This document shows positions 2-20,828 of a stretch of DNA of 33,754 nucleotides, piece after piece; position 1 is the first letter of the stretch; each line of letters starts with the position of its first letter. The position numbers and the translations under genes are program-made. The stretch spans positions 1-33,754 of the IMG/VR virus record IMGVR_UViG_3300028844_003583; one strand, given 5' to 3'. The notes under the pieces are model-generated. The model searched no databases. It was not told the DNA's origin and was given only the letters and a program-made list of their open reading frames with translations. This stretch comes from a virus.

Positions 2-436
2 AAACTAGATAACATTACTACGCACTACGATGGTATAAGTAGTAACGTACCTGATTACGATAAAGAAAACTTCATATCAAGGATGGAGGACTGTGTAAAT
101 AACGGTACAGCTTATATGATAGCTGATGGCAGTTGTTTTATATATTATGACAAAGATACTGAGTCACCTGCTTTCGCAGCAGGAGTAGCGTTATACGGAG
201 CAGGAAACCCATTGAAGATGATAGCGCTGTTTACATACGTATTCACACATGTAGATAGCAAAGTACTGTTCATGAGGTTAAGTCCTCACTCACCTACCTT
301 TGTGAACGAATGTAAGAGCTTACTAACGATAAACTCTGTTATAGACTACAGTATCAGCAAAGACTATCTTATGATTAGAGTAGACGAAATTAGGGATAAG
401 GTTAACAAACTTATAAAGAGTAGACTTGTGTTATGA
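2..436 (+). CDS. 3' part of a virion-region protein, cut by the window edge
   Basis: The frame is already open at base 2 and runs without a stop to the TGA at 434-436, so the first ATG inside it (83) is probably internal and the real start lies outside the window. At least 144 C-terminal residues are visible, with short mixed alpha/beta segments and a lysine-rich end. I recognise no motif. Position just before the ejection-protein genes is where T7-like phages keep the small gp13-type protein, but this is only positional. Its stop overlaps the next start as ATGA (433-436), so the two are probably translationally coupled. Confidence 0.75.
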   Translation, partial: KLDNITTHYDGISSNVPDYDKENFISRMEDCVNNGTAYMIADGSCFIYYDKDTESPAFAAGVALYGAGNPLKMIALFTYVFTHVDSKVLFMRLSPHSPTFVNECKSLLTINSVIDYSISKDYLMIRVDEIRDKVNKLIKSRLVL

Positions 437-2925
437 GCCACGCAGTAAAGATAGCAAAAGAGATAGAAAAATCGATATTTAAAGTAGTAAAGACAGTATG
501 GGATGAACTTACAGTTCCAATGCTCGAGCAGGTATTCGCTTTAATAGGTATTGTGGATGAGACTGTAGTAACAGCACAAAGAATATCCTCTCCTATATTT
601 AGTACTTATGATGGTGATGCTGTACATGATGCTACAGTAAAAGCAGTTATCACCAAAGTAAAAAGTGGTACAGACTTCTTTCCTACTTATATGGAGGAGA
701 TGTACCAAGCTAAGGCCAAGGTAAGATCTTACTACAACTATGCTAACGGTGGTTCTTACGTACACGGACTACCTACCATGACAGTGTCAGGTATAAAGAT
801 GACATCTGACCAACTAGCTACTATCGATAGTGCTATAGAGAGTAGTGTAGGTTTCCCTATAACTACAACATATACTCACTCAGGATACATAACAACTGAA
901 CAACACTTTATAGGATTACTTCAAAATAGTCATGATTACTTACCATACGCTAATACTTTAACTAAAGAGGATAAGTATGGAGTGTTAAGAGATGACTGGA
1001 TACTTAATGGTAACTACTTATTTGATACGTCTATTTCAGCATATGAAATAGATATAAGCAGGTCAGCAGCTTTAGCTGTATTTTGGGTTGAAGGCCCAAA
1101 TGTTGTAAAAGAGACTGATACTGCAGTGTTTACAGTAACAACAAACAGGGAAGTACCTGCAGGTAAAAGCTCAGCAGTAGAGTTACTTTATAGTTTCACT
1201 AAAAAAGACGGTACTGCATACAGCTATACAGGAACAGTTACAATACCAGAATTATCTAAATATGTAGACGTACCCCTTACAATATCAGTAGCAGATAGTA
1301 TAACGTCAATTTTGGTAAAGATAGTCTCTATCGCTAACACAGGAGGAGTATTCGAAGACGTAGAAATCAGCAGTGATAATACTGTAGTATGCAGTGTGAC
1401 AGCTCTTGTCGAGGAAGAAGTATATACACCTCAGACTGTTGAAGGTTCACTGACGGTATTCTATCAAGCCACAAATGAAACGCTAAGAGACGTTATATTA
1501 GGTGATAACTTTACACCTGAAAGACATCTAACTGTTAAGTACCATAGGGCAGGTGGATCACCTTCAGAATGGTTTTACTGGTTCTACAACCACAATGACG
1601 GCACTTATGATATTGAGCCTCAGTCTGAAAGTCTGCACGATTTAGAAATGCTACCAGTAGTAATACTGAGAAAAGACGGACAATTCGTTAACACAGACAA
1701 GTCATCACAGACTTACCTTACCACTAAAAGGATAATGGAATTTCTATCGTTTGACGTTGATCAGTTTATAGATAACATAGCAAGTAGTCCTGGAGCTGAT
1801 GTAGATAGTATATCAGATGCATACGTACATTTTTCAATGATGCCAGCAAATACAGACCCTACAGTATCTAAATTGCTGTATCACAGTTTCTATAACATAA
1901 TAGTTACAAATGGCCTATATTCAGAGCTAGAAGAGTACAACGCTATATTTAAAGAGGGTGACGTTAACAACAGTATAGTGTGGACAAAGCACACATACGA
2001 TCAGAACATAGAGGGAAGTGTCACTACTGTAGGCGAGTACAACCATTACGTTCAGAAAACTGTTGAAGGTAGTATTCTTTATTTAAGGTACCAGAAATCA
2101 TCCGGTCTGTATGATATGTTAAGTGTGTACAACTTAAACACTCTTACATCTATTGAGTATAACGGTTATCACCAAGTTGCTACTGCTAGTTTGTGGAACA
2201 AAGATACAAACTCTGTAGATGAGAGCTTTGGTATAGCATTATCATGGTTAGTATTCTCTAAATTAACAGCTCAAGAACAGACAGGGGTGTACAAGTGGGT
2301 TTGTAGGATGGATTTGTACTCACTAACTGTAACTGAATTAAGGTGGTATGAGACATCAGCGTTTGCAGATTTGTTCCAAATAGTTATGATAATTCTGGCA
2401 GTTGTTACTTTTGGTCAAACGTTAGTACTGTACGGAATAATTGCAGCAGCAACACAGCTATTGATAAGTTATGCTATAGGTGAATTGATAGTATTCGTTG
2501 CTGAAAAAACAGGAAGTGCAGTGCTTGCAGCTGTAGTAGGGTTTATAGCTACAGTACTTACTAGCGGTAAGTCAGGCACTAGTTTTTTCGATATGGTAAA
2601 CGCTATCGACTTAACAGACCAAGTAAGACTGTTCGCAGATAACTTTATAGCTGGTCAGTCTGCTATAGACGCTAAGACTATTGAAGAACTAGTTGAAGAT
2701 GGTATGGAAATAAACGCTGCTAGGGAACAATGGGAGGCTGATGAGGAAGCTAGGGCTAAAGCTGAGTATGATTCACCTATAACTATCGAGTTCCTACAAG
2801 GACTTAAAACACTAGAAACGCAAATTTCATCAGCAATTGAATCACAGTACAGGTTTGAGGATACATTCGGTTATGGTAAAGTAGGGAACTATCACGAAGC
2901 ACTATTAAGAACAGAAATAACATAA
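433..2925 (+). CDS. Large virion structural protein with Calx-beta/Ig-like segment and C-terminal membrane helices
   Basis: An 830-residue protein of no family I can name. Residues about 217-322 are a beta-rich stretch (FWVEGPNVVKETDTAVFTV onward) that reads like a Calx-beta or Ig-like domain. Residues about 330-640 are mixed, rich in Tyr and Thr. Residues about 648-712 hold two or three strongly hydrophobic helices, followed by a charged helical tail (about 730-800). It is coupled to the preceding gene by ATGA and is followed 16 nt later by the next virion gene. Size, lack of enzymatic motifs and position in the late block suggest a tail or ejection component; hydrophobic helices in a virion protein would fit membrane insertion at infection. 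Function inferred from context only. Confidence 0.75.
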   Translation: MSHAVKIAKEIEKSIFKVVKTVWDELTVPMLEQVFALIGIVDETVVTAQRISSPIFSTYDGDAVHDATVKAVITKVKSGTDFFPTYMEEMYQAKAKVRSYYNYANGGSYVHGLPTMTVSGIKMTSDQLATIDSAIESSVGFPITTTYTHSGYITTEQHFIGLLQNSHDYLPYANTLTKEDKYGVLRDDWILNGNYLFDTSISAYEIDISRSAALAVFWVEGPNVVKETDTAVFTVTTNREVPAGKSSAVELLYSFTKKDGTAYSYTGTVTIPELSKYVDVPLTISVADSITSILVKIVSIANTGGVFEDVEISSDNTVVCSVTALVEEEVYTPQTVEGSLTVFYQATNETLRDVILGDNFTPERHLTVKYHRAGGSPSEWFYWFYNHNDGTYDIEPQSESLHDLEMLPVVILRKDGQFVNTDKSSQTYLTTKRIMEFLSFDVDQFIDNIASSPGADVDSISDAYVHFSMMPANTDPTVSKLLYHSFYNIIVTNGLYSELEEYNAIFKEGDVNNSIVWTKHTYDQNIEGSVTTVGEYNHYVQKTVEGSILYLRYQKSSGLYDMLSVYNLNTLTSIEYNGYHQVATASLWNKDTNSVDESFGIALSWLVFSKLTAQEQTGVYKWVCRMDLYSLTVTELRWYETSAFADLFQIVMIILAVVTFGQTLVLYGIIAAATQLLISYAIGELIVFVAEKTGSAVLAAVVGFIATVLTSGKSGTSFFDMVNAIDLTDQVRLFADNFIAGQSAIDAKTIEELVEDGMEINAAREQWEADEEARAKAEYDSPITIEFLQGLKTLETQISSAIESQYRFEDTFGYGKVGNYHEALLRTEIT

Positions 2926-2941
2926 CTTAGAGGTAATAACC

Positions 2942-3415
2942 ATGCAGTCACTTGCAGGAAATCAACAACCTAATGCTTACACTGGAGGTAGTGGCTACTC
3001 GCTACAACTTCCAGTACAGAATACCTTAATGAGCAGCTTATTAGGAAAAAACAAAGTAGCATCACCTACGTCTGATCTGTCTAACTTAGATACTAGTAAC
3101 ATGAACTTTGATTTTTCAGGAGGTGGTCTAGCTAATAATGGCTACACTACAAACCCAGATACATCAGCTTTCAACTGGAAAAACCCAGATACTGGAGGTT
3201 TCGATTTTGGTGGTATAGGTGGTCTGGCTAACACTGCTCTTGGTGCAGCTTCGCTGTTTATGAACTATCAGTCTATGAAGGATGCCAAAGAGTATAATAA
3301 TAGAAATATGTCACTATTAGAAGAACAGCAAGGTTTAGCTAAACGAGCTGCAGATACTAACTACCAGAACCAACAACACATGGCAGAACAAATGGGTGGT
3401 TACGTAAACGCTTAA
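2942..3415 (+). CDS. Small putative internal virion (ejection) protein, gp14-like position
   Basis: A 157-residue protein with a Gly/Asn/Ser-rich first half of low complexity, a short Gly/Ala hydrophobic stretch around residues 88-105 (GGIGGLANTALGAASLFM) and a Gln/Asn-rich coiled-coil-like C-terminus (about 108-150). This pattern of hydrophobic patch plus helix, and its place directly before three ever larger proteins, resembles T7 gp14, the small ejectosome protein. That comparison is positional and compositional, not by clear sequence match. The start is backed by AGAGGT 8 nt upstream of ATG. Confidence 0.65.
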   Translation: MQSLAGNQQPNAYTGGSGYSLQLPVQNTLMSSLLGKNKVASPTSDLSNLDTSNMNFDFSGGGLANNGYTTNPDTSAFNWKNPDTGGFDFGGIGGLANTALGAASLFMNYQSMKDAKEYNNRNMSLLEEQQGLAKRAADTNYQNQQHMAEQMGGYVNA

Positions 3416-3458
3416 TACTGCTCAGCATTTTACCTTATTGTAATCAGGACTAGATATC

Positions 3459-5171
3459 ATGGCTTTAAAAGAAAATATGCCTTCAGTTGGAGGCTTCCTT
3501 AACACAGCACAGTACGCTAAAAACTTTAGTGATATGCTTCAACAAAATAAAATTAACGAGCAAAATAGGGTAAATGCTGAGAATACTAAAATATTCAATA
3601 CTCGACGTTTAGACCAAGCTGATGCTGCTGCAGAAAGCTTAGGTATTCAACGTGGAGTAGAGAACGAACAAAACGCTCTAAGGCTTAAGTACGATCAAGA
3701 AAACATGCTTCGTGACGATAACAGAGCTGCAGCTATGGACGCATGGAATAGAGGTGCTGCTGCTAGAGATGCAGCTAGAAAGCGTCAGAATAACCTTAAG
3801 TTTTATGAAGATTTAAAAGCTGCTAAAGCTAGTAGCCCAGAAGCAGGTAGAATATTTGGAAGGTCAGACTTAGGAGCTATAAACGGTTTAGGTGATGGTC
3901 AAGGCCCACTAGTTGAAGGTAGCCAAGGTTTCATCGATAAAATGAATGCTCCAGGAAACCAAATAAACTTCCAAAACCCTAAAAAGATAAGTAATGACGT
4001 TATGGAGCATTTCCTATCTAGAGGTTATTCTATTGAAGATGCACAAAGAGCTAGTGGCTTTGCGTTAAAGGATTATGTTACTAACTCACCTGAAAGTGTT
4101 AAGGCCGGATTAGAGAGTAGTAGTGCGAGAACTGAAGCCTTAACTAAAGCTATAACAGGTGGTAGTGGTAGTGGAGGTAGAGGCTCTAACGGTCAAGGAA
4201 GTGGTACATTTGGCGATAGAGCCAGTAGTACAAAATACGTAGAAGATTACTTAAAAGACACTACTGAGCCAGGTTTCTTAGACTCTGTATTTAACGTTAT
4301 AAACCCTGCCAATGACCCTAACATGTCAAGATCTCGTCTAATACCTATATTAGCGTCATTTGCTGCTGAAGGTATCGATGCAAGATCAGCTATAATGGCA
4401 CTGGAAGCTAGAGGTAATGTCAGAGGTGGAGAGTTTGAAGGTACTAAACCATCTGAACTGCTTGACCCTGAGAATAGTGGTGAGATGCAGGAGCTTTACG
4501 CTATAGGTAAAGCTGTACAGTCTAACTCTGGTGGTATGACAATGGAGCAGAGGCTAAGTGGTATCAACGCTGCATACGACGATAAGCTAGTAAGAGACAG
4601 CAGTATAGTTGCTAGTGGTTCACCTTCAGCGTTAAATAACCAACAACTAAGTAAAACGTTTCAGACTTATTTGTCTCAAAATGCTATAGATGTATCAGGC
4701 GATTCAGATAGCGTTATAGAAACTGGTGATAGTAACAATGCTTCTATAACCGAAGCTAGTTCTGGTGCACCTGTACCTAAACCTTTTAGTAGTCTTAACC
4801 AGTACATAAAAGATAACAGTATTGCCACAAAAGAAGCAGCCTACAACGCTAATTTGGATGCAGTAGTTGATAATCGTAAGGCAGAGTTAAAACCTCAACA
4901 GCTAAAAAGATTCCAAGCTCAACGTGCTCGTGATAACGAAGCTGCGAATAACGCACTAGAAAGACTTGGCCCTAAGAACATAATATCTAGAGCTGCCCCT
5001 GAAGAACAAGAAAGTATGATAGCTGAAGCTGAGAAACGTATGGCAGAAATTAAGGCTACTAGAGGTAAAACGGATGAAGAGAAAAATACTTTTGCAAACT
5101 TACGTAAATTAGTACAAGACCACTATGAGCGTGAAGAATTAGAAGCTAAGCTGACACAACCACGTAGATAA
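3459..5171 (+). CDS. Putative internal virion (ejection) protein, gp15-like position
   Basis: A 570-residue protein, very rich in Ala, Asn, Gln and Arg, with a long helical N-terminal third (about 20-140), a Gly/Ser linker near 230-252 (GGSGSGGRGSNGQGSG) and a helical, charged C-terminus (about 480-565). No catalytic motif or signal peptide is visible. Large helical proteins of this make-up in the late block of podoviruses are usually core or ejection proteins. The start has AGGA about 10 nt upstream. Family not identified; the role is inferred from order and composition. Confidence 0.65.
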   Translation: MALKENMPSVGGFLNTAQYAKNFSDMLQQNKINEQNRVNAENTKIFNTRRLDQADAAAESLGIQRGVENEQNALRLKYDQENMLRDDNRAAAMDAWNRGAAARDAARKRQNNLKFYEDLKAAKASSPEAGRIFGRSDLGAINGLGDGQGPLVEGSQGFIDKMNAPGNQINFQNPKKISNDVMEHFLSRGYSIEDAQRASGFALKDYVTNSPESVKAGLESSSARTEALTKAITGGSGSGGRGSNGQGSGTFGDRASSTKYVEDYLKDTTEPGFLDSVFNVINPANDPNMSRSRLIPILASFAAEGIDARSAIMALEARGNVRGGEFEGTKPSELLDPENSGEMQELYAIGKAVQSNSGGMTMEQRLSGINAAYDDKLVRDSSIVASGSPSALNNQQLSKTFQTYLSQNAIDVSGDSDSVIETGDSNNASITEASSGAPVPKPFSSLNQYIKDNSIATKEAAYNANLDAVVDNRKAELKPQQLKRFQAQRARDNEAANNALERLGPKNIISRAAPEEQESMIAEAEKRMAEIKATRGKTDEEKNTFANLRKLVQDHYEREELEAKLTQPRR

Positions 5172-5195: not shown

Positions 5196-8100
5196 ATGTC
5201 TGTATCTGATATATTTCAAGATTTACAAAACCCTGCTACACGGGGTTTAGCAATACAAAGTGCACCATCTCTGTTCGATACTAAGATGGGAGCTATAGCT
5301 GCTGCAGGTGCAGAAAAGCAAGGAAGACTTGACCCTGCAGCACAGGTGCAGAGTGAAGTTAACCAGATACTAAGCCGTGGTATAAGTGGTTCTAGTTTCC
5401 TTGGTGGACTATCTAGCTTAGCTGATGCTTCTATAGATAGAGAGTTTGAGGATATATCTAACTTCGCTACTGGTGAATCTAATCCTAATCTAATGGCAGA
5501 AGCAGATGCACGTAGTGGTGTTGACCCTGCACTTAGAGCAAAACTGCAACAGTCGTCTAGCGATAGTATAGATTCTCTTGCAGAAGCACGTATAGACTTT
5601 AGTGACGGCAACTATCTAGACTCAGCAGGTAATGTACTAGATGCAATAGTCACTACCGGTAAAGTGCTCCCTGAATTAGCAGTAGATAGTTTAGCAGGTT
5701 CAATTGCGTCAGGTGTTGCTGGTACAGTACTTACAGGTGGCATAGGTGGAGCTGCTGCACTAGGTAAACGTATATTTAGTGCTGGTAAAACAGTAGGCAA
5801 TATAACTGATTCTGTAGATAAAGCCGTAAAAGCTAAGAACGCTAAAAGTAGAGCAGGTAAAATTACTACTGCTGTAGGGAACGTAAGTCTATCAACTGCT
5901 GCAGTACTGCAACGAAATGAAGAAGCGTACATAGCCGAAAATGGTGAAGCATCTTCTACCCTACATAAAGTAGTAAACGCTCCTGCAGCAGTAGCTCTTA
6001 TGTTATGGGATAGAAAAATATTCATGAGTGCTGTCCCTACTATAGCAGGAGCAAAAGCAGCAGCTAAAGCAAGAAAAGAGTTTGTTAAAGGTGTTACCTC
6101 TAAACTAGACCCTATACCTAAAAAATATGCTGTAGCTGTAGCGAAGAAAACATTAGCAGCAGCAGGTAAAGCAGCTAAGATAGGTGGTGCAGAGGCAACA
6201 CAAGAGTACTTGCAGTCATGGCACTCTATACTCCAATCGAAGATGGACGATGCATCACTTAGATCTGCTATGGATCAGTTACTTGACGAAGGTAACATTG
6301 ATGAAACCAACTATGCTGGTTTAGTCGGCGCAATGGTAGGTGGAGCTTCGAGAGGTGCTACAAGTGTTCCTGGTATCGCTGCAACAGCAGGTACAGGTGT
6401 TGCTGTAAATACAGGCAGGTCTGTAGCTAAAGTTGCTGGTAAAGCTTATGACAAGTCTTCAGAAATAGTTAAGGACTCAGCTACAAGAGCAAGTTTGAAG
6501 CTATACACTGCAGACGAGAGAGCAGCACAAGCTGAACGTAATGCTATAGCTCAAAAAGAAGCTGATACCAGTATTGAGAAAAGTAATTCAGATATAGCAT
6601 TTGTTAACCGCTCTAAGTCAGTTTCGGACATTTCTGAAAACACTAGTATGAAAGCTAGGCTTGAGGATGTTCAGAGAAAGTTAGAAATTACTACCGAAGA
6701 GCTTAATGATCCTGATGTCCTATCGTCTGTAAAAAATAGACTGATAAGTGACATGAAAGGTGAGCAGGCAATCACTAAAGCTAGATTAAAAGCTAACAGT
6801 GCTTTACGTGTCATGAAGGATATAGGCAACAACGTAGCTGATAAGTCTATTACAGCAGCACAAGAAGGACTTGATAAAGTTACTTCTAATGAGCTGGCTA
6901 AAACAGCTATCGCTAAAGGTGTTGAAGGTATAGCAAGTGTACGAAATATCAAATCTAGTACTGCTAGAGGTGTCTTAAACTTAGCTTTGACAGAAGGTAA
7001 TAATGCATCTAAGCGTGTAGTAGCAGCGTCTAGAAACCTTGATGTTGATGACATAAAAGTTATTGCCAAATCAGTAAAAAATTCAAACCCTGAGTTGGCT
7101 GAAAAATTAGAAAAAGTATATAACGCTAAGGTATCTAGTCTTAAAAACTTAGGCAGTACAAACGATAATATAACAAGTAGTGAAAACTTAGATAAAGGAC
7201 TTAAAGCAATAGCTGAAGGTGCTAACATTGATGCCAAGGATTCACCAAAAGTACTTAAAGCTGTTAGTGCAGTTATAGGTGGAAGGATAGGAGATGTAGC
7301 TACGCTAGAAGTAGCTGAAAAGGTACTAGCTAAGTATAAAGAAACTGATGAGTATATTAATGGCTCTAATAAAGCTACTGTCGATGTATTAGAGAAAAGA
7401 CTAACCTCACAAGGAAAACGTCTACGTAAACCTGTGTCTAAAGAGATTAAGAAACGATTAGGTGAGTTAGGAGGTAAGCTTAAAGAAGCATTCCATCCTG
7501 ACAACAACGCTGATGTTCTTAAGACACTACATGATATGGTTGCTGATAATACTCCTGAGCAGTTCAAGAAAAAAGCTAATGAGTATTTACTACAGTTAGA
7601 TAATATAACTTTACCTGATATCACTACTGAAAAGGGTCAAGAAGAGTTAGATAAGCTAATTGGTGATGCTTATGACTCTGTAGTGAGTGGGTTACAGGAA
7701 GCTGCTAAGTCCACTAAAGATTACGCCAAAAGAAGTACTGACATATCTAATAGGCCTAGTAAGTCAACTAGGAGTACTAAAGCAAAACCTAAAGATGAGA
7801 CTAAAGATAAGCCTGTACCTGATACTGAATCTGATGTTGTCAAGTCTGAAGAGTCTGCTGCCAAAAAAGCTAAGTACGAAAAGTTATTAGGTACGTTGGA
7901 CAAGCATATGACTGAACAAAAAGATGTCGATGTTATTAATGAGTCTATCACCCCTGCTATACCAAAACTGATAAGTATGTTTAAAGATTTAGGTGCAACT
8001 TCTTACAGTGAAGTAGAGACTATTATCAACGATTATGATACTTTAAAAGACATTAGTTCTCTGGTAGAAGCACTTAAAAAAGAGTTCCCTGACGATAGAG

Positions 8101-8222
8101 TTAAAGACGAGTCATTTTTTGAAGAGAACGATGATGGTCTTGAGCTTAACCAGCTACCTACAGAAGAAGTAGTAGATGAGTACAAACGTAAATTTCCTCA
8201 GTGCCCTGTAAAATTTAAATAG
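5196..8222 (+). CDS. Putative large internal virion (ejection) protein
   Basis: A 1008-residue Ala/Lys-rich protein. It has a Gly/Ala hydrophobic stretch near 160-195 (SLAGSIASGVAGTVLTGG), a second near 370-410, and a EATQEYLQSW segment near 333; runs of this sort occur in internal virion proteins of other podoviruses. Residues about 430-900 are mostly helical and highly charged, probably coiled coil. I see no transglycosylase motif. It lies 24 nt after the 570-aa gene and 11 nt before the 2067-aa gene, so it is probably co-transcribed and co-packaged with both. AAGG sits 7 nt upstream of the ATG. Confidence 0.65.
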   Translation: MSVSDIFQDLQNPATRGLAIQSAPSLFDTKMGAIAAAGAEKQGRLDPAAQVQSEVNQILSRGISGSSFLGGLSSLADASIDREFEDISNFATGESNPNLMAEADARSGVDPALRAKLQQSSSDSIDSLAEARIDFSDGNYLDSAGNVLDAIVTTGKVLPELAVDSLAGSIASGVAGTVLTGGIGGAAALGKRIFSAGKTVGNITDSVDKAVKAKNAKSRAGKITTAVGNVSLSTAAVLQRNEEAYIAENGEASSTLHKVVNAPAAVALMLWDRKIFMSAVPTIAGAKAAAKARKEFVKGVTSKLDPIPKKYAVAVAKKTLAAAGKAAKIGGAEATQEYLQSWHSILQSKMDDASLRSAMDQLLDEGNIDETNYAGLVGAMVGGASRGATSVPGIAATAGTGVAVNTGRSVAKVAGKAYDKSSEIVKDSATRASLKLYTADERAAQAERNAIAQKEADTSIEKSNSDIAFVNRSKSVSDISENTSMKARLEDVQRKLEITTEELNDPDVLSSVKNRLISDMKGEQAITKARLKANSALRVMKDIGNNVADKSITAAQEGLDKVTSNELAKTAIAKGVEGIASVRNIKSSTARGVLNLALTEGNNASKRVVAASRNLDVDDIKVIAKSVKNSNPELAEKLEKVYNAKVSSLKNLGSTNDNITSSENLDKGLKAIAEGANIDAKDSPKVLKAVSAVIGGRIGDVATLEVAEKVLAKYKETDEYINGSNKATVDVLEKRLTSQGKRLRKPVSKEIKKRLGELGGKLKEAFHPDNNADVLKTLHDMVADNTPEQFKKKANEYLLQLDNITLPDITTEKGQEELDKLIGDAYDSVVSGLQEAAKSTKDYAKRSTDISNRPSKSTRSTKAKPKDETKDKPVPDTESDVVKSEESAAKKAKYEKLLGTLDKHMTEQKDVDVINESITPAIPKLISMFKDLGATSYSEVETIINDYDTLKDISSLVEALKKEFPDDRVKDESFFEENDDGLELNQLPTEEVVDEYKRKFPQCPVKFK

Positions 8223-8233
8223 GTATAAAAATA

Positions 8234-11200
8234 ATGTACTGTCCCTCAATAGAGTCGTATATAAGATATCATCGAGAACTTAACGGTATCGATATTAATC
8301 CTGACACGGAAAAGAACACTAGATTTGATGTATGGAGTGTTACACCTAAAAACATACACGAAATGATCAACAGTAACAGTTCTGCAGAAATGCCAGGCAT
8401 TGAGGCTTCTAGGTACGTTAAGTCTAAAATAAATAATGCACTTAGTCGTGTTGCAAAGTCTAAAGTAGATATATCTGATTTTCTTGCTGATATTATAGGT
8501 AACGATAAAGATAATATTGATACTGCTAACGCTGACAAATCGATAGCTTTACGTGAAGTTATGGAAGCTATTAAAGGTGAAGCTGATAAAGCTCGTAACA
8601 ATGATATCGATATAGCTTTATTAGAGGTGGAAGGTATATTGCCTGCACTTCCTCTTTCACGTATTGCTGCCAGTATAGGCAGAAAGTCCCTGTACTTTGA
8701 CCAAATTAGATTTAAATCTAACGATGAAAGTGTTAAAGATGCTGCAGAAATTGAACAGCTCTACTACACACATGGGTTAATTATACTGAGACAGCTAGAA
8801 GATAAAGGTTACGTAAACTTCCACGAAGATCACCCAACTATTCGTGATTATACTGACAGTGAAATTGCTGATAACAAGTTTAGTACTGCTGCTACAGTAG
8901 TTACTGACGTTCGTAGTATATCCCTAAACACTGACAAGTTAGGTGTGTCTAAGTTCGACAGTAAAAAACCTACAGAATTGACACAAGAAGCTGCCTTCTT
9001 TCTCAACCGTACTGAGTCTGACATTAAGGGCACTAAGTTAGGTAAGATTGTAGACGTTATGACTGCAGTAGGTCATGTAACACAAGCCTCTTTAACTGAG
9101 TTACCGGATACAGTAGAGGCTGACCCTAACAGAGTTTTATCTGATAATGACCCTAAAAGTAACGTTAATGACCCTATATCAGATAGTGCTAGACAGAAGC
9201 TTTACGACAACCCTCTTAGAGTCAATAAGTCTGTACATGGACTTATAAAACTTCTTAGTGAAGCTATGGAAGAGGCAGGACAGGATTCGTCTGCATCTCA
9301 GATCATAGCCAAAGCGTTTAAAGGTAGTCCAATTAAGTTTAACTCGCTATTCGGTATAAAGGCATCTAATGATTTCTCAGTTGACCGTAAAGAGAGTATA
9401 CAAGGTCAAAATTTGTCTAAGACTGTTCCTTTGGATGACGTAGTTGATGTATACCGTGCACTTATGGACAGTGAAGGTAATCCTGTAAATTTACATATGG
9501 CAATGAAAGGTGGCAGAAACCAGCGTCTTTACTACACGAACAGTGTCCTTAATGCTCATGCTAGCAAGCAAAGCAGACACATGTTAACTAGTGGTGAACA
9601 GACTATAGAAATAGGTTCTGACAACTTCAAACGCCTAGTTAATACTATGGCAGAAACGTTAGATGATGAAACTATTACATATAGTGACATTGTGGACGGA
9701 GGAAATGTTAAGCTTGAAAGAGCACTAAAAGCTTACAAGTCTTATGAAAATTCTAAAGATTTAAGTACTAAACTAGTAGCTATAAGTAGGCTACCTGTAG
9801 AGTTTCCAGGAGTAGACTATGCAGCTTTACTATCAGTATTAGCAGGTGTTTCAGACATTAGATCAGCTAAAGGTGAAACTCACGTTACTACAGAATTTAT
9901 GCATTCTGCAGATGCTACAGCTCAAGGTGGTACTTTAACCATTCAGCAGGCTTTAGGTACTAATGCTAACATTGAAGCACTTCTCCAGCGTTTAGGTATC
10001 ATTCGTGACAAGGATGGTAATGTCATAATAGATACTGAACAAAAATTAAATGATATATACGGTCTGATGTCTGAAGGTATCACTAACTTTATAAGTGGTG
10101 ATAACACCAGAACAATGGCAATAGAAACTAAAAGTGGACGTATTGAAGATAACCTTCAACAGACACTTAACTTATTGTTTGGTGGTGATGCTAAAGGTAC
10201 TCGTAATCTATCTAAAGATGCAACCATGCCATTCATATATGGTCAAGGTGAGGTAGGTGCAACATCATCCATGTCAGACTCAATAGCCCAAAGAGTTATC
10301 GATAATCTAGATCGTCCTGACACTATATCTTACCTAGCTGATTTATTAGATGATAACTCTATAAAAACAGCAGGTCATGAAAAGCTTAAAGATACTAGAG
10401 GACTGTACCCAGCTATAAAGAAAGCTCTTAATACAAAGGGTGTACCACTTCAGTTGTACAGAATAATGGAATCTGAGATAAACAATCAGTACCTTAAAGA
10501 GTTTAAGGCTGACAGTAAGGCTGTGTTTGAGTTAGCTAACAGTGTCAAAAATCCTCACAACCTTAAAGTGCTACCAGCAGGTGCAGTTTTAGCAGGTATC
10601 GAAGTATCTGAAGTTCAGAAGTACGGAATGCCATTGACTAAAGTTGTAGAGGTATCTAGTGCTGTAACTGGTAACGCTAATGATCCTCTTATGTCTGAAG
10701 GTGGACATACTGTACTGACTCGTAAACAGCAGTTGTTTAAAAGTATTATGGACGTGTCTGTAATTCACGGTATTGACTCAGGTCTTATGTACCATGCACT
10801 TGATAAAGTTATAGGTACTGTTGAAGGTAACAACGGTGCCATAGTAGTACACGACCAGGTAATAGGTTCTGTAGAGCTGGTACGTAGAGTAGAAGAAGAG
10901 TACGTAAAACTTAATTCAAGGATGGTAGCTGAATACGACACACATCAACAAGTGATGTTATCTATAGCACAACATGACCCAGCAGTTGCTAGAACTCCTA
11001 AGTTCAAGGCACTTATGGCTAAACTAGATGCAAGATTAGCTGCTAAAGCCAAGTTTATAGCAGAAGAAAGGTTCAACGAAGATACTGACGCACTTATCGG
11101 TGATGGTGACAGCTTTAAAACATTTTCTGAAGGATATGTTCACGCTAGACCTACTACAAAATCAAAACCAAAAGCTAAGACTACAGTAAAAACAAAAGAA

Positions 11201-14200
11201 AAAGTCAGTACATCAGATATCGGTACTGATATGACAATTCTGCTTGAAGGTCTAAGATCTAAATCTACTCTTATAGATAGGTTCTTAGATAAGTCTAGTA
11301 AACCTGCAATACTGGGTGCAGTTAACTCTTTTGATACTGAAAATGATCAAGTAGTAATTCAAGCTGATAATATTAGTGTAGAACTTATCGAGCATGAGAT
11401 TGTTCACCACAATACTGCAGGCTACATAGCTAAGGCATTACACCAAAGAAGTAAAGGTGAGGCTACAGAACTTTCTACAGACGTGGAGTACTTCAGGAAA
11501 GCTACGTTTGTTTTGAGAAAGTATCTTACAGATGTAAGTGAAGAGTCTGCTGTAAATAAGATGGGTCAAAAAGCTTATGATCGTGCTGTCTACATGGTAA
11601 ATTCTGACCATGACCCTGCAACACAAATAGCTGAATTCGTAGCTATCATGTCTACAGAGTCAAAAGTATCTGAAGAAATCTATAAAGTAATAGCAGGAAG
11701 GGTACCTACTAAAACTCTGAAAGCTAGAATCTCTGATTTCGTTAAGAAAGTAACTAAGTTACTAACGACTCTTAGCGCTGAAGATTTTACAGCTACTATA
11801 GACGCTGACAAACTGCAGGATGCTTTAGTTAGAACTTTAGAGAATGGTAGGTCTTTTAAGGAGGATAAAGCAGAAGAGGCTATGAGTTACCAGATTGCGT
11901 TTAAAACTCTTAATGCTGGCCCAGGTATATCAGAATCTATGCGTTACATGAATGATTCGGTATCTAGTATGCTAGAAAGTCAGTTTGAAAGACGTGGTAA
12001 ATCTATAGCAGGAAACATTCATAAGATTATGAGCTTAAGATTTCCTATGTATGTTGATGCGGCTAACAAGCTTAAGTCCTCTTATGAGGGTTCTGAAGCT
12101 ATGCAGCAGTTAATCCATACAATCACTGGTGAAGGTACTAATAAGACCTCAAAAGCTGATCTATTAGCTCAGTCAGCTAAAGTAGAGAGTGATCATAGAA
12201 GCTCTATTGCACATCAGCATCAGGAGTTTAAAAAAGCTCTTAAAGGTGTGGATGATAGCACTAAAGAAACTATTGGGAGATTTGTTACACAGTTACCTCT
12301 ACATGACTACTTCGTACTAGCTAAAGACTTCAATACTGCAGCTAAAATTGACGCAGAAGTTGCTAGACTTGAAAGTGTTATGAGCAAACAGATAATGTCA
12401 GATATTGATGGTATTATTGACCGTAATGTTAACAGAAAAACTGAAGGTGATAGTTCAATATACAGCCTAAGTGTTAAGTACAGGCAGGGTTCTGAAGACA
12501 AGCACGGTAATGACATTAAAAGACTGTTAGCTCTTAAGTCTATACAGACTATTGGATCTAGTGATTTTGAATCGTTCTTAGGTAATACAGATCTGGTCAA
12601 CCTAATAAAAGATAACGTTATGGCTAACAAGCTTAACTTAATCAAAATAGGTGGTGCTAGTAAGATGAGAGATAGTCTACTTCCTGACTACTGGAAAGAG
12701 TCTCCTCAAATGTTACCTGTTACTATTGAAGAAGCTAGACGTTATGCTATTGGAGAAGAGACTGGTTGGAAAGTTCTACGTGAACCTACTAAATCTAGTT
12801 TAGGTATAGTGTATAAGGAGATGGTCGACTCTACGGAACTGCAAGGTTCTCATACTGACATAGGCCTTAAGTCTACTGACATAGACATTAACACTAAAGC
12901 TCATAAAGCTTATAACGGCATACTAGAGACTGCAGACGGTGGTTATAAACTAGTCCTTACTGATAAAGAACGAGCTACTGCAGGTATTGAAGATGACTTC
13001 GTTGATACGCTTATTAGAGGTACCGCTCATAGTATCGCTGTTAATGATTCACAGTACATTAGAGACGCTATCATTAAGTCTGAAAACAGGTTTGATGGTA
13101 CGGATGCAGCTAAACTAGATAAACTAAATCAGATTCTTAAGTCTAAAAATGCAGATGCACCTTGGTTTGTTAAACTAAATAAAGACCAAACTTACAGCAA
13201 CTTAAAGCACTCTATAAGAGCTAAATATAAAGTTATAGATGATAGAGCTTCAGACGTTATAGGTGAATCTGGTAATAAGTTTAGTGATGAAGTTCATCTA
13301 GTCCGTAAGGATATGTCACACTTTCTTGTTGGTGGTCACTCTTCGTCACCATTCCAAAATAAGAAAATGAAATGGGCTGTACGTATCGTTAAAGACATTA
13401 TGGCAGGTACAAAAATAGGTATGGTAGTTCTTAACCCGGTTAAGATCGCTATGGATAACGTATCTAATTTATCGTACTTGAGTGTATCTGGTGCATCACC
13501 ATTGTTTATTGCAAAACAGTACAGGGATATATCAAGGTCTTATAACGATTACCAGAACCTAGTTCATCAAATGGTAACGTATAAAGTAAGGTTGGCTGCA
13601 GACGAGAATAACGAAAACATCAAAGCTAAAATAGCTAAATTGCAGAAGAGTATAGATGCGAATCCTGTAGGTGACTTAGCACATAAAGGTTTTGTTAACT
13701 CATTAGGTTCTGATCTAGTTGCTAGAAGTTCAGACGTATCGTCAGGGTTACAGGTCGATATGGAAACAGCTTTAACTTATTTATTGAAAGATAAAAAAGG
13801 TGATATGAATGTTGTAGGACAATTCATTAACAATTTACATAAAATAGGTTTTCAGAGTGAGGATTTTGTTAAGTATTTAGGAGGTATAGTTGGAAGGGCT
13901 AAAGATGGTAAGGCTGCTCATCAGCAGTTAGATTTGACTGTTGAACGCATTAAAAGCATAAAAACTGAAGATGACATTGTGAGTTATGTTTCACAATACA
14001 CTACAAGTCCAGGCAGTGAACTAGTTAGACTAGGTTCAAGTATGACTGACTTAACTGACGTTTTAGCTAAGGAGACTTTGTATCGACATGCTATGCAGAA
14101 TGAGGGTATGAGTGCGGAAGCTGCTCGTGTTCACGTACTAGATTCGTTCCCTGACTATAAAGAGAACTTACCTATGGCAGTGAAGCAGTTGAGTGATGTT

Positions 14201-14437
14201 GGTATTATAATGTTCCCTTCTTTCTGGTTAAGAATACAGAAAGCTATATACCGTATGGCTAGGGATAAACCAGTAGGTCTTAGTACTGAATTGGCTGTTG
14301 AGCATTACCTGACAGGAAGTGTTAACACAGTGTTTGACGCTAACATCATTAACAAGTCTGAGTCATTCGGAGGTGTATTCCATATGCCACTTGAATCTTC
14401 AGGTCTTGGTAGTGCTATACCGTTGAATATACTATAG
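8234..14437 (+). CDS. Virion RNA polymerase-like giant protein (T7/N4 single-subunit RNAP core) with HExxH motif
   Basis: At 2067 residues this is the largest gene in the window. The middle carries motifs of the single-subunit RNAP family in the right order. R428 (KGGRNQRLYY) resembles the T/DxxGR motif, but with Met in the first position. D560 in DATAQGG is motif A (T7 DGSCSG, D537). R657NLSK661 then seven residues then Y669-G670 is motif B, exactly the T7 R-x3-K-x7-YG spacing. D848 in IHGIDSG is probably motif C. D560-R657-D848 spacings (97, 288) are near those of T7 (90, 275); R428-D560 (132) is near that of N4 vRNAP (135). Further on, H1054-E-I-V-H1058 is a zincin-type HExxH. The C-terminus (FPSFWLRIQK near 1994) resembles ends of other giant phage virion proteins. 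N4 vRNAP is injected to transcribe early genes; the same role is inferred here. N4 vRNAP is about 3500 residues, so this is a compact version. Confidence 0.75.
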   Translation: MYCPSIESYIRYHRELNGIDINPDTEKNTRFDVWSVTPKNIHEMINSNSSAEMPGIEASRYVKSKINNALSRVAKSKVDISDFLADIIGNDKDNIDTANADKSIALREVMEAIKGEADKARNNDIDIALLEVEGILPALPLSRIAASIGRKSLYFDQIRFKSNDESVKDAAEIEQLYYTHGLIILRQLEDKGYVNFHEDHPTIRDYTDSEIADNKFSTAATVVTDVRSISLNTDKLGVSKFDSKKPTELTQEAAFFLNRTESDIKGTKLGKIVDVMTAVGHVTQASLTELPDTVEADPNRVLSDNDPKSNVNDPISDSARQKLYDNPLRVNKSVHGLIKLLSEAMEEAGQDSSASQIIAKAFKGSPIKFNSLFGIKASNDFSVDRKESIQGQNLSKTVPLDDVVDVYRALMDSEGNPVNLHMAMKGGRNQRLYYTNSVLNAHASKQSRHMLTSGEQTIEIGSDNFKRLVNTMAETLDDETITYSDIVDGGNVKLERALKAYKSYENSKDLSTKLVAISRLPVEFPGVDYAALLSVLAGVSDIRSAKGETHVTTEFMHSADATAQGGTLTIQQALGTNANIEALLQRLGIIRDKDGNVIIDTEQKLNDIYGLMSEGITNFISGDNTRTMAIETKSGRIEDNLQQTLNLLFGGDAKGTRNLSKDATMPFIYGQGEVGATSSMSDSIAQRVIDNLDRPDTISYLADLLDDNSIKTAGHEKLKDTRGLYPAIKKALNTKGVPLQLYRIMESEINNQYLKEFKADSKAVFELANSVKNPHNLKVLPAGAVLAGIEVSEVQKYGMPLTKVVEVSSAVTGNANDPLMSEGGHTVLTRKQQLFKSIMDVSVIHGIDSGLMYHALDKVIGTVEGNNGAIVVHDQVIGSVELVRRVEEEYVKLNSRMVAEYDTHQQVMLSIAQHDPAVARTPKFKALMAKLDARLAAKAKFIAEERFNEDTDALIGDGDSFKTFSEGYVHARPTTKSKPKAKTTVKTKEKVSTSDIGTDMTILLEGLRSKSTLIDRFLDKSSKPAILGAVNSFDTENDQVVIQADNISVELIEHEIVHHNTAGYIAKALHQRSKGEATELSTDVEYFRKATFVLRKYLTDVSEESAVNKMGQKAYDRAVYMVNSDHDPATQIAEFVAIMSTESKVSEEIYKVIAGRVPTKTLKARISDFVKKVTKLLTTLSAEDFTATIDADKLQDALVRTLENGRSFKEDKAEEAMSYQIAFKTLNAGPGISESMRYMNDSVSSMLESQFERRGKSIAGNIHKIMSLRFPMYVDAANKLKSSYEGSEAMQQLIHTITGEGTNKTSKADLLAQSAKVESDHRSSIAHQHQEFKKALKGVDDSTKETIGRFVTQLPLHDYFVLAKDFNTAAKIDAEVARLESVMSKQIMSDIDGIIDRNVNRKTEGDSSIYSLSVKYRQGSEDKHGNDIKRLLALKSIQTIGSSDFESFLGNTDLVNLIKDNVMANKLNLIKIGGASKMRDSLLPDYWKESPQMLPVTIEEARRYAIGEETGWKVLREPTKSSLGIVYKEMVDSTELQGSHTDIGLKSTDIDINTKAHKAYNGILETADGGYKLVLTDKERATAGIEDDFVDTLIRGTAHSIAVNDSQYIRDAIIKSENRFDGTDAAKLDKLNQILKSKNADAPWFVKLNKDQTYSNLKHSIRAKYKVIDDRASDVIGESGNKFSDEVHLVRKDMSHFLVGGHSSSPFQNKKMKWAVRIVKDIMAGTKIGMVVLNPVKIAMDNVSNLSYLSVSGASPLFIAKQYRDISRSYNDYQNLVHQMVTYKVRLAADENNENIKAKIAKLQKSIDANPVGDLAHKGFVNSLGSDLVARSSDVSSGLQVDMETALTYLLKDKKGDMNVVGQFINNLHKIGFQSEDFVKYLGGIVGRAKDGKAAHQQLDLTVERIKSIKTEDDIVSYVSQYTTSPGSELVRLGSSMTDLTDVLAKETLYRHAMQNEGMSAEAARVHVLDSFPDYKENLPMAVKQLSDVGIIMFPSFWLRIQKAIYRMARDKPVGLSTELAVEHYLTGSVNTVFDANIINKSESFGGVFHMPLESSGLGSAIPLNIL

Positions 14438-15671: not shown

Positions 15672-16735
15672 CGTTCTGTTCTAGTAGTGTCGTTAGTACT
15701 ACTACGGCAAATCATGTCTCACGACATTACATACCTGCTATATGTTTCCATATAGACCAGACTATATCTTCACCTAGTTGGGATATTTCCTACTACTGCA
15801 CCTACAAACCTGCCTCTTTGTATAGGCTTACCGCTCTTCTTGTTTTGTGCTCTGATACTAACGTATTGTTTCATATTCAGACCATCAAGTAGAGCTTGTT
15901 CGTGCATAGTAGTGTCATAAAACAGATGTGTTACATAAGGATAGGACAGAAACCAAGGACTAAACTTAGGGTTATTCGTACCTTTAACTTTACCGCTTAA
16001 GGATAAGCTATCCCTACTCTTTTTTACAGAGTAAGCAGGTCGTTTAACACCAAGTTTAGCTTTAGCTATCTTGTCTTTAGTATCTTGTGAGCATACTCTT
16101 CCTTTCAAGGCTTTACTGCATTTCAGTTTATGTTCCTCTGTGAGAACTGTGCCAGAGGTATCAAAACCAGTAGAAGTTTGGATAGCCTTATTGTAGTAAC
16201 TTTCATTTGTTACTACGTTGTGCTTTCTTTGCAAGTACATTTCGTACTTTACTGCTTCTACCCTACTGCTGAACCTTTTCAGTATAACCTTTTCGTGTGT
16301 AATCTTTACGTCATCAGGAAGATACTTAGAACTTCCCCAGTAACCTGTATCATCTTCTGGTTCACACTTAGATGACCTAACACCGATGTATTTTTTATCT
16401 TCTGTTTTATGCTGTATCTCATAGATGTAGTGATTCATAGTATTCCCTTCGGTAATTTATAGTACTATACCTTAAGTCTACTTCACTGTACATCAACTAG
16501 GGTTCCCCATTTCCACTCACTTGAGTGTACGTCTTTCGACTAGTCGTTGAACCTTCTCCATTTTAAAGGAGCTTGGCTGCTGATTGCCTAATGTCAGTAA
16601 TTTTTAAACATTCACGCTTACTGTTTCCAGTTACGTTGTAGTTTACTGACCTTAAAGGTATCCCAGCAATTAGAGGAATATTTACGTATTTCAACGTATA
16701 ACTGCGTATCACTACGCAGCAAGGCTGACTAATCC
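15672..16735 (-). ncRNA. Group I intron in the Sak4-like gene, carrying a GIY-YIG endonuclease
   Basis: The 1064-nt intron has recognisable core elements on the minus strand: a P-like AATTGCTGGGATACC (about 16659-16673), R-like GGTTCAACGACTA (about 16541-16553), S-like AAGATATAGTCT (15759-15770) and a P9 hairpin CTATATG-GAAA-CATATAG with a GNRA loop (15738-15755). Near the 5' end is a CTGCGTA/TACGCAG hairpin. Exon 1 ends ...GGT and the intron ends ...G. The endonuclease ORF lies between R and S, in the P8 loop: CCCTAGTTG before it pairs with CAACTAGG at its 3' end, and its TGA abuts S. Much of the core is nearly the same as in the 328-nt intron at 19211-19538. Confidence 0.85.
15770..16438 (-). 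CDS. GIY-YIG homing endonuclease, intron-encoded
   Basis: A 222-residue protein. The N-terminus has a GIY-YIG domain: MNHYIYEIQH then KKYIGVRSS (Y-I-Y and Y-I-G blocks), with a following basic stretch and E at YEMYLQRKHN. Two NUMOD3-like DNA-binding repeats follow at about 110-135 (HKLKCSKALKGRVCS, KDKIAKAKLGVKRPA). The C-terminal third is basic and probably holds more DNA-binding sequence. It has its own ribosome-binding site (AAGGGA, 6 nt). It probably cuts the intron-less Sak4-like allele to spread the intron. Its stop codon region is also part of the intron core (P8/S), so gene and ribozyme overlap. Confidence 0.88.
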   Translation of the reverse strand: MNHYIYEIQHKTEDKKYIGVRSSKCEPEDDTGYWGSSKYLPDDVKITHEKVILKRFSSRVEAVKYEMYLQRKHNVVTNESYYNKAIQTSTGFDTSGTVLTEEHKLKCSKALKGRVCSQDTKDKIAKAKLGVKRPAYSVKKSRDSLSLSGKVKGTNNPKFSPWFLSYPYVTHLFYDTTMHEQALLDGLNMKQYVSIRAQNKKSGKPIQRGRFVGAVVGNIPTR

Positions 16736-18507: not shown

Positions 18508-18685
18508 CTAGTGCCTCCTGTATCCAAGCCATAGCAGTGTTTATATCATCAATAGGTACGTGTATTTCATGCTGTTCAGCAAGAGTTTCGTACTTGCCTA
18601 TAGCATCCCACACTACCTCTAACGCATTTCTAATTCTGCTATCTGTTAAAGTCTCTACTTCGTTAGTATTTCCTGTGCTATCCAT
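18479..18685 (-). CDS. Hypothetical protein, 68 aa
   Basis: A small acidic, helical protein (sample: RIRNALEVVWDAIGKYETLA) ending in EEEKTDEH. The ATG at 18685 overlaps the polymerase stop by 8 nt and has GGAG 7 nt upstream, so it is probably coupled to polymerase translation. No motif recognised. Confidence 0.65.
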   Translation of the reverse strand: MDSTGNTNEVETLTDSRIRNALEVVWDAIGKYETLAEQHEIHVPIDDINTAMAWIQEALGEEEKTDEH

Positions 18686-19210
18686 GTATTTTCTCCAATA
18701 CTTTAGATATGTCTTCTACAGAAGCTTCGTTCTCAACTTTGAATAAGTCAGCCCAGTTAAGACCAATTTCACCTTTAGCAACGTTAGGAACAACTTCTTC
18801 TTCTAGCCACTGTACACATAAAATAGGTACGATATTATCGTTTAACCATTTTATTAGTTCAGGGTCTTCATCAACGGTAAAGTATATGCTGTCATATATA
18901 GTAGATATGACACTTATACGATCTGTATAACCAGCTTCCCTTATACGATGATTAATCTCATTTACAGCTATCAGAGTTAGTATGCTCCAAAACTGAACAG
19001 TCGCATTATTGATTGACCTTATTTGTTGATCAGGGTCATCAGAATACATTCTGCAACCTAGACCTAGATGTATGTAACCATTCTCTTTGGTGGACGGTAA
19101 TACATAGTTCTCACGGTAATCAGTTATACCTGGGTAAAGTATATTGTGATAATTATCAAAAATTTCTTGAGTAATTACACCACCAGTGTGTGCATCAGGA
19201 TAGCCACCAT
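18678..19210 (-). CDS. DNA polymerase family A, exon 3 (fingers end, palm motif C)
   Basis: The exon begins with the Y-G of motif B: exon 2 ends RFNSKAPTFKLA and exon 3 goes on YGGYPDAHTGG, giving the R-x3-K-x3-F-x3-YG O-helix pattern of family A polymerases. Then come GLGCRMYSDDP, the conserved RSINNATVQ helix and motif C as TIYDSIYFTVD, with YDS in place of the common HDE; the Asp is the catalytic one. A separate 123-aa ORF could be called from ATG 19049, but coding sequence clearly extends upstream to the intron border at 19210. Total spliced protein is about 604 aa. Confidence 0.85.
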
Positions 19211-19538
19211 CGCTTATGTTCAGTATGAGTCGTTAATTCATACCCGCATCATTACATGCAGCTAGTATTCTCATACTAGGCCAGACCATATCATCATCCT
19301 TGCAGGATGCTGTATATTTCCACTCACTTGAATGTACTCCCTCTTCAGGGATGGTCGTTGAACCTTCCTCATACCAATTTGGGTTAGAGGCTCGGCTGCT
19401 GATTGTCCAATCCTAAACTTTTCAAACCTTCGTACACTGTTTTCACGTGTACTGTGGTGTTTAGGCTCTAAGGAGTTTCCAGCAATTAATACAGTTTTCG
19501 ATACGCATTACTGCGTAAAGGCGCTCAGTGTTTCTTTC
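19211..19538 (-). ncRNA. Group I intron without endonuclease, in polymerase motif B
   Basis: A 328-nt intron. Exon 2 ends ...CTTGCGT and the intron ends ...ATAAGCG, fitting the U/G rule and restoring FKLA-YGG. Minus-strand core elements: P-like TAATTGCTGGAAACTCC (about 19472-19488), R-like GGTTCAACGACC (about 19353-19364), S-like GATATGGTCTGG (about 19280-19292), and a P9 hairpin CTAGTAT-GAGA-ATACTAG with a GNRA loop (19262-19279). A TACGCA/TGCGTA hairpin near the 5' end parallels the one in the Sak4 intron. It has no room for an ORF, so it is either an ORF-less form or depends on an endonuclease encoded elsewhere. Confidence 0.85.
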
Positions 19539-19890
19539 ACGCAAGTTTGAAAGTTGGAGCTTTAGAGTTAAATCTAATTTTACCTAGAACAGCATTGTCT
19601 GGGTCATCATCATCTTCAACTTTGCGGTAGAACTCTTTAACATAAGTTACGTTGTCAGTGTTCTCTCCCATTATTTCAGCTATCTTATCAGGGAAATAAC
19701 CACATGCATTAAGTGAGTGACCATCTAGATCTTCAAGAAATATATTTTGCTTATTAACATCACCTGAAAGATTAGCTATACCTCTATCTTCTAAAGCACC
19801 TAGATCTATAGCATATATAACTCTGCCTTCAGGGGCTATAAAACACTTTTTAAGAGGTTTTGCGTATATAGATCTAGAACTAGGCATGTT
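19539..19890 (-). CDS. DNA polymerase family A, exon 2 (palm motif A to fingers)
   Basis: The exon reads NMPSSRSIYAKPLKKCFIAP, then motif A as VIYAIDLGALEDRGIANLSGD (catalytic Asp in AIDLGALEDR, the DYSQIELR equivalent), then an insertion-rich part with DDDDPDN, and the first half of motif B, KIRFNSKAPTFKLA. It joins exon 1 at SPNL/NMPS, the conserved PNLQNIP-like turn, and exon 3 inside motif B. Its length (352 nt) is not a multiple of three, and only the joined exons keep the frame. TTG 19893 could be called as a start but is intron sequence. Confidence 0.85.
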
Positions 19891-20828
19891 CAATCGCTGT
19901 ATTCAATGAGGCTCGTTAGCTCCTCACCAGTTCTCTTATGAACTTCTGCATGTTGCCATGCAGGCTAGACTATATCAACGCCCACTTGGGGCGATATCCG
20001 TTTCGAGTCACTTGACCCTACTTCCTTTTCAGGAATAGTCGTTCGGCATTTATGTAATAACATTTTTAGGTCTGTCGGTAAGACTTAGTTCGTCAATAAT
20101 CCAGTTAACATGTAAAGCAGCATCCTCTTCAGAATCGAATCTTTTAGGAAACATATTTCTACCGTTAACTCTTATTGTTGCAGCCCATTTACCTCTACTT
20201 TTATGGAAAGTCACGTTGTGGTATTTAGAGTGAGTATTAGGTAAGTGTTTTTTACCTAACGAATTTTTCATCTCAAATATTTTATCGTAAGTTCCTGTAC
20301 GTATACTGTGCTGCTTATTCTGTGAACTAGATACCCACTCTAGATTAGAAGCTGAGTTATTATACTTATCTTCATCTATGTGGTTTACTTCTCTCAACCT
20401 CTTCGGATTCTCTACGAAGGCTTTAGCTACTAATCTATGTATTAGATGCGATGTTCTTACACCTGATACAGCGAATTTTAGTGCTTCGTATCCAGAGTTT
20501 ATTTTATAAGTTTTCAGAATCTTATTTCGAGAATTCCTTACACGACCTAGATTCGAAATCTCATATGTTTTTTCAAAACCTTCTACAGGTTTCCATGTTT
20601 CGTTATTACAATTTAGCACGGGATTGTCCTTTGGTATGTTAGTGTATGTACAATAGTACATTGTCTGACATACCGTAGCAAGGAGTTTCCCCGTTTAGGA
20701 TATTTTAGACATAAGATTGCTCTTATGAATCCCTATAACGTTAAAAGTATTGGGCTAAGAAAACACCACTCTATCATTTGTTTATTATCATCAAGTGAGG
20801 TTTTCGTAGTCTTTCTTTTAAAGTCGTT
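19891..20828 (-). ncRNA. Group I intron in DNA polymerase, carrying an HNH endonuclease
   Basis: A 938-nt intron. Exon 1 ends ...AACCTT and the intron ends ...GCGATTG, giving PNL/NMP after splicing. Minus-strand core: P-like GGGGAAACTCCTTGCTACGG upstream of the ORF, R-like GCCGAACGACTA just after the ORF (about 20036-20047), S-like GATATAGTCTAGCC (about 19963-19976), and a P9 hairpin CTGCATG-GCAA-CATGCAG with a GNRA loop (19946-19963). The endonuclease therefore lies upstream of R (P6 region), unlike the P8 location in the Sak4 intron. The unspliced frame runs 31 codons into the intron. Confidence 0.85.
20050..20619 (-). CDS. HNH homing endonuclease with NUMOD4 and AP2-like domain, intron-encoded
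   Basis: Domains in order: NUMOD4 (WKPVEGFEKTYEISNLGRVR), an HNH core (IHRLVAKAFV, then VNHIDEDKYNNSASNLEW with the paired His and Asn) and a C-terminal AP2-like DNA-binding part (YHNVTFHKSRGKWAATIRVN). The open frame reaches ATG 20661, but that codon has no ribosome-binding site; GTG 20619 has AAGGA 8 nt upstream and gives 189 residues, so I prefer it. It probably cuts intron-less polymerase alleles. HNH enzymes of this build are frequent in phage polymerase introns. Confidence 0.87.
   Translation of the reverse strand: MLNCNNETWKPVEGFEKTYEISNLGRVRNSRNKILKTYKINSGYEALKFAVSGVRTSHLIHRLVAKAFVENPKRLREVNHIDEDKYNNSASNLEWVSSSQNKQHSIRTGTYDKIFEMKNSLGKKHLPNTHSKYHNVTFHKSRGKWAATIRVNGRNMFPKRFDSEEDAALHVNWIIDELSLTDRPKNVIT

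Follow-up and report, generated by a model that had tools for sequence, protein, structure and literature searches.

A 33,754-base virus fragment (IMG/VR record IMGVR_UViG_3300028844_003583; the whole stretch is called the window here) contains an open reading frame (ORF) for a protein of 2067 amino acids (aa) at 8234..14437, which starts with ATG and has no internal stops. Positions in the window are on the + strand unless a minus sign is given. The first-pass annotation of this DNA took the protein for a compact form of the virion RNA polymerase (vRNAP) of phage N4, so the question raised by the locus is whether an N4-type vRNAP has been shortened here. Our analysis indicates that the polymerase is a vRNAP of normal size made as two chains: the 2067-aa protein (chain 2), which carries the polymerase domain and the domains C1 and C2, and the split-off N-terminal domain (NTD), a 1008-aa protein (chain 1) encoded just upstream at 5196..8222. 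Each chain has one Cys, located at the cut end, and we think it probable that these two Cys form an interchain disulfide which restores N-to-C connectivity.

The identity of chain 2 was supported by profile, structure, and motif comparisons. PHROG 2206 (“virion RNA polymerase”) matched chain 2 with E 4e-36, most strongly in the C-terminal region, where the conserved part of C2 (residues 1731-2042, 13424..14359) was the best stretch; Pfam and PDB phmmer searches gave no usable match. The AlphaFold model of residues 1-1000 had a predicted local distance difference test score (pLDDT) of 83 and a predicted template modelling score (pTM) of 0.82. In a Foldseek search with this model, ranks 1-9 were all N4 vRNAP entries, with mini-vRNAP 2po4 as the top match (E 2.6e-14), followed by T7 and mitochondrial RNA polymerases (RNAPs). 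VIA-align gave Z 18-19 to T7 and N4 RNAP (Z 18.5 over 759 residues to 3c46_A), and model residues 5-960 covered N4 mini-vRNAP 16-1065, which places the single-subunit RNAP domain at about residues 5-960 (8246..11113). Thus, the N4-type assignment made in the first-pass annotation was supported, as was the match to the right-hand RNAP fold that it had proposed to look for. Full-length relatives found by tblastn were those of the Alteromonas phages R22Y and PT11-V19 (about 30% identity over 99%), and many Schitoviridae matched in the C-terminal part; no relatives were found in bacterial or archaeal genomes.

Catalytic residues were counted across 16 aligned relatives with identities as low as 22%, and the 16-sequence profile was aligned to N4 vRNAP with hhalign (E 6e-6). 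R431, D560, R657, K661, Y669, and D848 were invariant (16/16). Motif A D560 (9911..9913) aligns with N4 D1556, and motif B R657-x3-K661-x7-Y669 (10202..10240) with N4 R1663/K1667/Y1675, while the pairing of motif C D848 (10775..10777) with N4 D1948 falls outside the profile alignment and is based on order and fold. Judged from this alignment, the invariance of D560, R657-x3-K661-x7-Y669, and D848 is far above chance, and these residues are located where they had been proposed. Two other proposed residues did not hold up. R428 (in KGGR) had been taken for the first-motif arginine, but hhalign pairs N4 R1421 (mini-vRNAP R424, in TRVGR) with R431 (9524..9526), which is the probable T/DxxGR arginine, and R428 is conserved in 15/16 relatives as against 16/16 for R431. 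G670 had been counted as part of motif B, but this position is G in 9/16 rows and D, K, or Q in the others. Behind the polymerase domain, HEIVH at residues 1054-1058 (11393..11407) is a zincin-like motif corresponding to the HExxH of N4 C1, which is HELVH at 2228 (PMC12633501), and HExxH was present in 20/21 split polymerase chains. With its catalytic residues, modelled fold, and C1 and C2 domains, chain 2 is predicted to be a genuine N4-type vRNAP.

Two other proteins were noted in connection with C1. The split polymerase chain of L039 (4841-10495, 1884 aa) is without HExxH and most of C1 and otherwise intact, a natural deletion of the zincin-like domain. L029 (5981-15184) encodes a Cys-free single-chain protein of 3067 aa which matches the C1 region only and has a very long tree branch and a different gene order; it may be a remote vRNAP-like protein from a different group of phages.

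N4 vRNAP consists of the NTD (to residue 906), a 100-residue low-complexity linker, RNAP (1007-2101), and the C-terminal domain (CTD, 2124-3500) (PMC12633501). Chain 2 starts at the RNAP boundary of N4, which is the start of the crystallised polymerase domain, and corresponds to N4 from about 1010 on, and the chain break falls where N4 has its long disordered linker. Chain 1 and chain 2 sum to 3075 aa, compared with 3022-4093 aa for single-chain vRNAPs, and the summed lengths across the split clade were 2835-3575 aa. The earlier calculation that the 2067-aa protein has about 60% of the N4 length is therefore correct, but “compact” is wrong, since the N-terminal third is the upstream gene 5196-8222. 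Homology of chain 1 to vRNAP NTDs was found at the profile level: hhalign of 19 chain 1-type proteins against 17 single-chain NTDs gave a colinear match with probability 96.4 and E 1.1e-9, and the controls (reversed sequences and RNAP/CTD profiles) reached at most 0.3. When the chain 1 profile was compared with 128 single targets (17 NTDs, 34 other vRNAP parts, and 77 other phage ORFs), the top 12 were all NTDs (Mann-Whitney p 1e-10).

The gene order points in the same direction. A gene of about 1000 aa lies between the gp51-like and polymerase genes in the window, R22Y, and PT11-V19, and in the split clade the chain 1-type gene is always immediately upstream of the polymerase gene, adjacent and often overlapping. 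No large gene was present between the gp51-like and vRNAP genes in N4, phCDa, LUZ7, and 17 other annotated single-chain phages. The AlphaFold model of chain 1 (pLDDT 54.8, pTM 0.29) was too poor for a fold search, and the Gly/Ala-rich hydrophobic stretches around residue 165-185, which most N chains have and which are similar to that of N4 at 121-141, had low hydropathy scores and were not counted as evidence. Joining of both ORFs by programmed frameshift or read-through was rejected: the frame is +2 in the window, L001, and R22Y, but 0 in PT11-V19, with gaps of -13 to +16 nt. The NTD of a vRNAP is thus provided by a separate upstream protein, and in place of one giant polypeptide there are chains of 1008 and 2067 aa.

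The absence of Cys from vRNAP has been known since 2002 and was tied to passage through the tail and periplasm (PMC3715699, PMC3915230, PMC2784036). We found 0 Cys in 71,993 residues of 21 single-chain vRNAPs; for comparison, the Cys content in PT11-V19 is about 1% in replication proteins and 0.4% in other structural proteins. The split chains do have Cys, one per chain and at the break. In the window, the sole Cys of chain 1 is Cys1003 (TGC, 8202..8204), the sixth residue from the C-terminus, and that of chain 2 is Cys3 (TGT, 8240..8242). The split clade was sampled by 22 distinct genomes with 21 intact polymerase chains. All N-terminal chains (22/22) had exactly one Cys, 1-6 residues from the C-terminus, and all intact polymerase chains (21/21) had exactly one, at residue 3-8, while 66,130 inner residues had 0 Cys, and so did 11,062 residues of partial chains. 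These counts take the start of L001 at the internal ATG (MSCIP..), as a GTG four codons upstream would put a second Cys into that tail, and the Cys of the L038 polymerase chain is residue 8 or 4 depending on the choice of start. Residues flanking the terminal Cys vary freely among split chains, and the N-chain alignment (A7) has no more than four invariant columns, E333, E337, W342, and C1003. Cys3 lies in a disordered tail of the chain 2 model (pLDDT below 50 for residues 1-5). The gp51- and gp52-like proteins of split phages were Cys-free in all those read; therefore, the Cys of chain 1 and chain 2 are the sole possible partners in the ejection set. The upstream half, the HExxH domain, and this Cys pattern had all been missed in the first-pass annotation.

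The rule also extended to two secondary breaks. In the phage G001 (IMGVR 3300010392_000731), the CTD is made as a protein of its own, with 1280 aa and one Cys, at residue 6. From this lone Cys6, an extra C-terminal Cys was expected on the RNAP chain, and it was then found: the 1003-aa RNAP chain contains two Cys and no more, one at residue 3 and one in the fourth position from the end. The N chain of G001 has one, third from the end. This second break is located in the RNAP-CTD linker. In L039, the nearest relative of G001 by the tree, this linker is continuous and free of Cys. A distance of about 6.5 kb with tail-like genes separates the genes for RNAP and CTD in G001. L119 is broken between C1 and C2; the upstream chain (491 aa visible, with HELVH and a weak C1 profile match) ends with ..NCKG, the 957-aa C2 chain begins with MAC.., and there is no other Cys in the visible part of either chain. 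As far as sequences can tell, the same signature of one Cys per side is found at three different break sites.

In a tree of the conserved C-terminal 420 residues, the split rows all formed one branch (support 98/95), with which 97% of bootstrap trees agreed, and the two secondary breaks were nested within the split clade, separate from each other. Therefore, we counted three independent events, not 22, and the primary split would most simply be one old event retained through deep divergence. Two further observations concern separated genes. In L072 (reverse complement 6615-13132), the genes for RNAP and CTD of the three-way split phage are separated by about 6.5 kb with tail-like genes; three of these have several Cys, and PHROGs names none of the three large ones. 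Loss of the polymerase in L037 was considered and rejected, as the polymerase domain is encoded by a gene of its own, about 6.5 kb upstream.

The NTD of N4 vRNAP is membrane-associated. When isolated, it enters nanodiscs (PMC12633501), and according to unpublished data cited in PMC4496689, genome injection requires the NTD and encapsidation the CTD. A free NTD would then lose its packaging link and a free RNAP-CTD its injection leader, and a tether would restore both; with one Cys on each side of the cut, a disulfide would be the simplest chemistry. The N-terminal chain would be packaged with the polymerase and lead it through the tail and the oxidising periplasm. Oxidation could take place in released virions or in the periplasm, and the reducing cytoplasm could undo the bond, freeing the polymerase from the membrane anchor. 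We tentatively propose a redox-timed tether, with slightly more doubt than belief: each break would be bridged by one interchain disulfide, oxidised in the virion and periplasm, the chains would thread the tail in order as one string, and cytoplasmic reduction would free the polymerase from its membrane anchor (in the three-chain form also from the autoinhibitory CTD) and so start early transcription.

Several points weigh against the disulfide. We found no biochemistry for any split member and no virion proteomics for the clade, and that chain 1 and chain 2 are virion proteins is itself predicted. Packaging takes place in the reducing host cytoplasm; therefore, the bond would have to arise inside the capsid or at a late stage, in the periplasm or once the cell has lysed. 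The 22 lineages with the two-way split show retention and not 22 origins, which leaves the secondary breaks as the only independent repeats, and G001 and L119 are each known from a single metagenomic contig, that of L119 being truncated upstream. The terminal Cys could also be functional in another way, by binding metal between copies or by dimerising like chains in a four-copy assembly. One Cys per chain is also compatible with same-chain dimers, and N4 virions have about four vRNAP copies (PMC12633501), which counts for this explanation. We nevertheless consider it unlikely, because the Cys always face each other across the break, the middle chain of G001 with a Cys at each end suits a linear chain over dimers, and the tails show no evident neighbouring Cys or invariant set of metal ligands.

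Noncovalent association, with the tails as docking or sorting peptides and a local packing role for the Cys, seems to us slightly more improbable. The tails are short and adjacent, hydrophobic residues are common beside the Cys, and adjacent, often overlapping genes would favour co-translational assembly; but Cys alone is conserved in the tails, and packing leaves unexplained why exactly these residues breach the family-wide Cys ban. Ligation of the chains into a single peptide by protein splicing or thioester chemistry would use a Cys near each junction, as is found. The positions fit this poorly (residue 3-8 instead of 1, and 1-6 from the C-terminus, where the following residues vary), no intein-like domain was seen or reported in family searches, and the RNAP and CTD genes of G001 lie kilobases apart, so we regard ligation as highly improbable. 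Hardly any weight is left for the original view, a compact vRNAP that lost its NTD next to an unrelated 1008-aa gene. In single-sequence searches of phage records, the sole homolog of chain 1 was a weak PT11-V19 match, and Pfam and PHROGs gave nothing significant, as this view would have it; it is strongly disfavoured by the profile homology with clean controls and by the NTD-type gene that immediately precedes the polymerase gene throughout the split clade and is missing from single-chain phages. A two-chain vRNAP with a disulfide across the break is thus the explanation that we prefer.

The gene neighbourhood agrees with a vRNAP locus. The polymerase gene follows the ejection genes and converges on the replication genes. 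Upstream of chain 1 are a Cys-free gp51-like ejection protein (3459..5171, 570 aa) and a Cys-free gp52-like ejection protein (2942..3415, 157 aa), both assigned by position from synteny with N4, phCDa, and DSS3phi2, and a gp53-like (tail plug) protein (433..2925, 830 aa; phrog_2220, E 3e-29) which occupies the place of gp53 in N4. The 33.7-kb fragment probably does not include the early region. On the replication side, the DNA polymerase gene (18684-21743, -) is in three pieces that jointly cover PT11-V19 DNA polymerase 1-592 without loss; they are separated by a group I intron (RF00028, 19262-19548) and by a second intervening stretch that holds an HNH/NUMOD4 endonuclease ORF (20050-20661). 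Two GIY-YIG (SegE-like) endonuclease ORFs were found at 15770-16438 (-), with a NUMOD3 motif, and 23866-24315 (-), and the genes 27370-28158, 30953-31489, and 32313-32765 (all -) encode a CobS/porphyrin-biosynthesis-type ATPase, a dNMP kinase, and a TerB-domain protein. Among the contigs used, two from IMG/VR, of 65,148 bases (L008) and 198,785 bases (L009), share one 26-kb stretch; the larger has nearly three times the length of the smaller, so it may be a concatemeric assembly.

How a polymerase of about 380 kDa passes a tail channel of about 35 A, and why Cys is banned from it, are puzzles of N4 biology. The split clade is a natural experiment on both, with one Cys on each side of every cut and nowhere else. 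If the disulfide is true, covalent continuity of the ejected string would be under selection, the Cys ban would be explained as avoidance of wrong pairings, and there would be a rule for ordered delivery of multi-part proteins with release by reduction. The sequenced isolates R22Y and PT11-V19 make this directly testable. The absence of Cys from vRNAP and the R22Y homolog as a vRNAP were already known, and what is unexpected here is the lone Cys at the cut ends; in the open-licence literature, we found no prior report of the split or of terminal Cys beyond general no-cysteine remarks.

The closest systems are the RNA polymerases of R22Y (PP212876, 2083 aa) and PT11-V19 (OP751378, 2082 aa), which share the split and the lone terminal Cys in both chains and are 31% identical in the polymerase chain. 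The former was published and the latter annotated merely as vRNAP or RNA polymerase; the R22Y homolog had already been named vRNAP (PMC11705849), which the first-pass annotation had missed, and we found no mention of the split or the Cys in that paper. N4 vRNAP (gp50, 3500 aa) and the single-chain vRNAPs of Schitoviridae have the same NTD-RNAP-C1 (HExxH)-C2 order, catalytic residues, gp51/gp52/gp53 neighbourhood, and Cys-free inner chains, but in the window phage the NTD is a protein of its own, and both chains carry a single Cys where the cut is. T7 RNA polymerase has the right-hand single-subunit fold and the R/D/R/K/Y/D catalytic set in the same order as chain 2, but it is a cytoplasmic 883-aa enzyme which is not packaged and is without NTD, C1, and C2. 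N4 RNAPII (the gp15/gp16 heterodimer) is also a T7-like polymerase in two chains (PMC4496689). It is split within the polymerase and not carried in the virion, whereas the break in the window phage separates domains and leaves the polymerase core whole.

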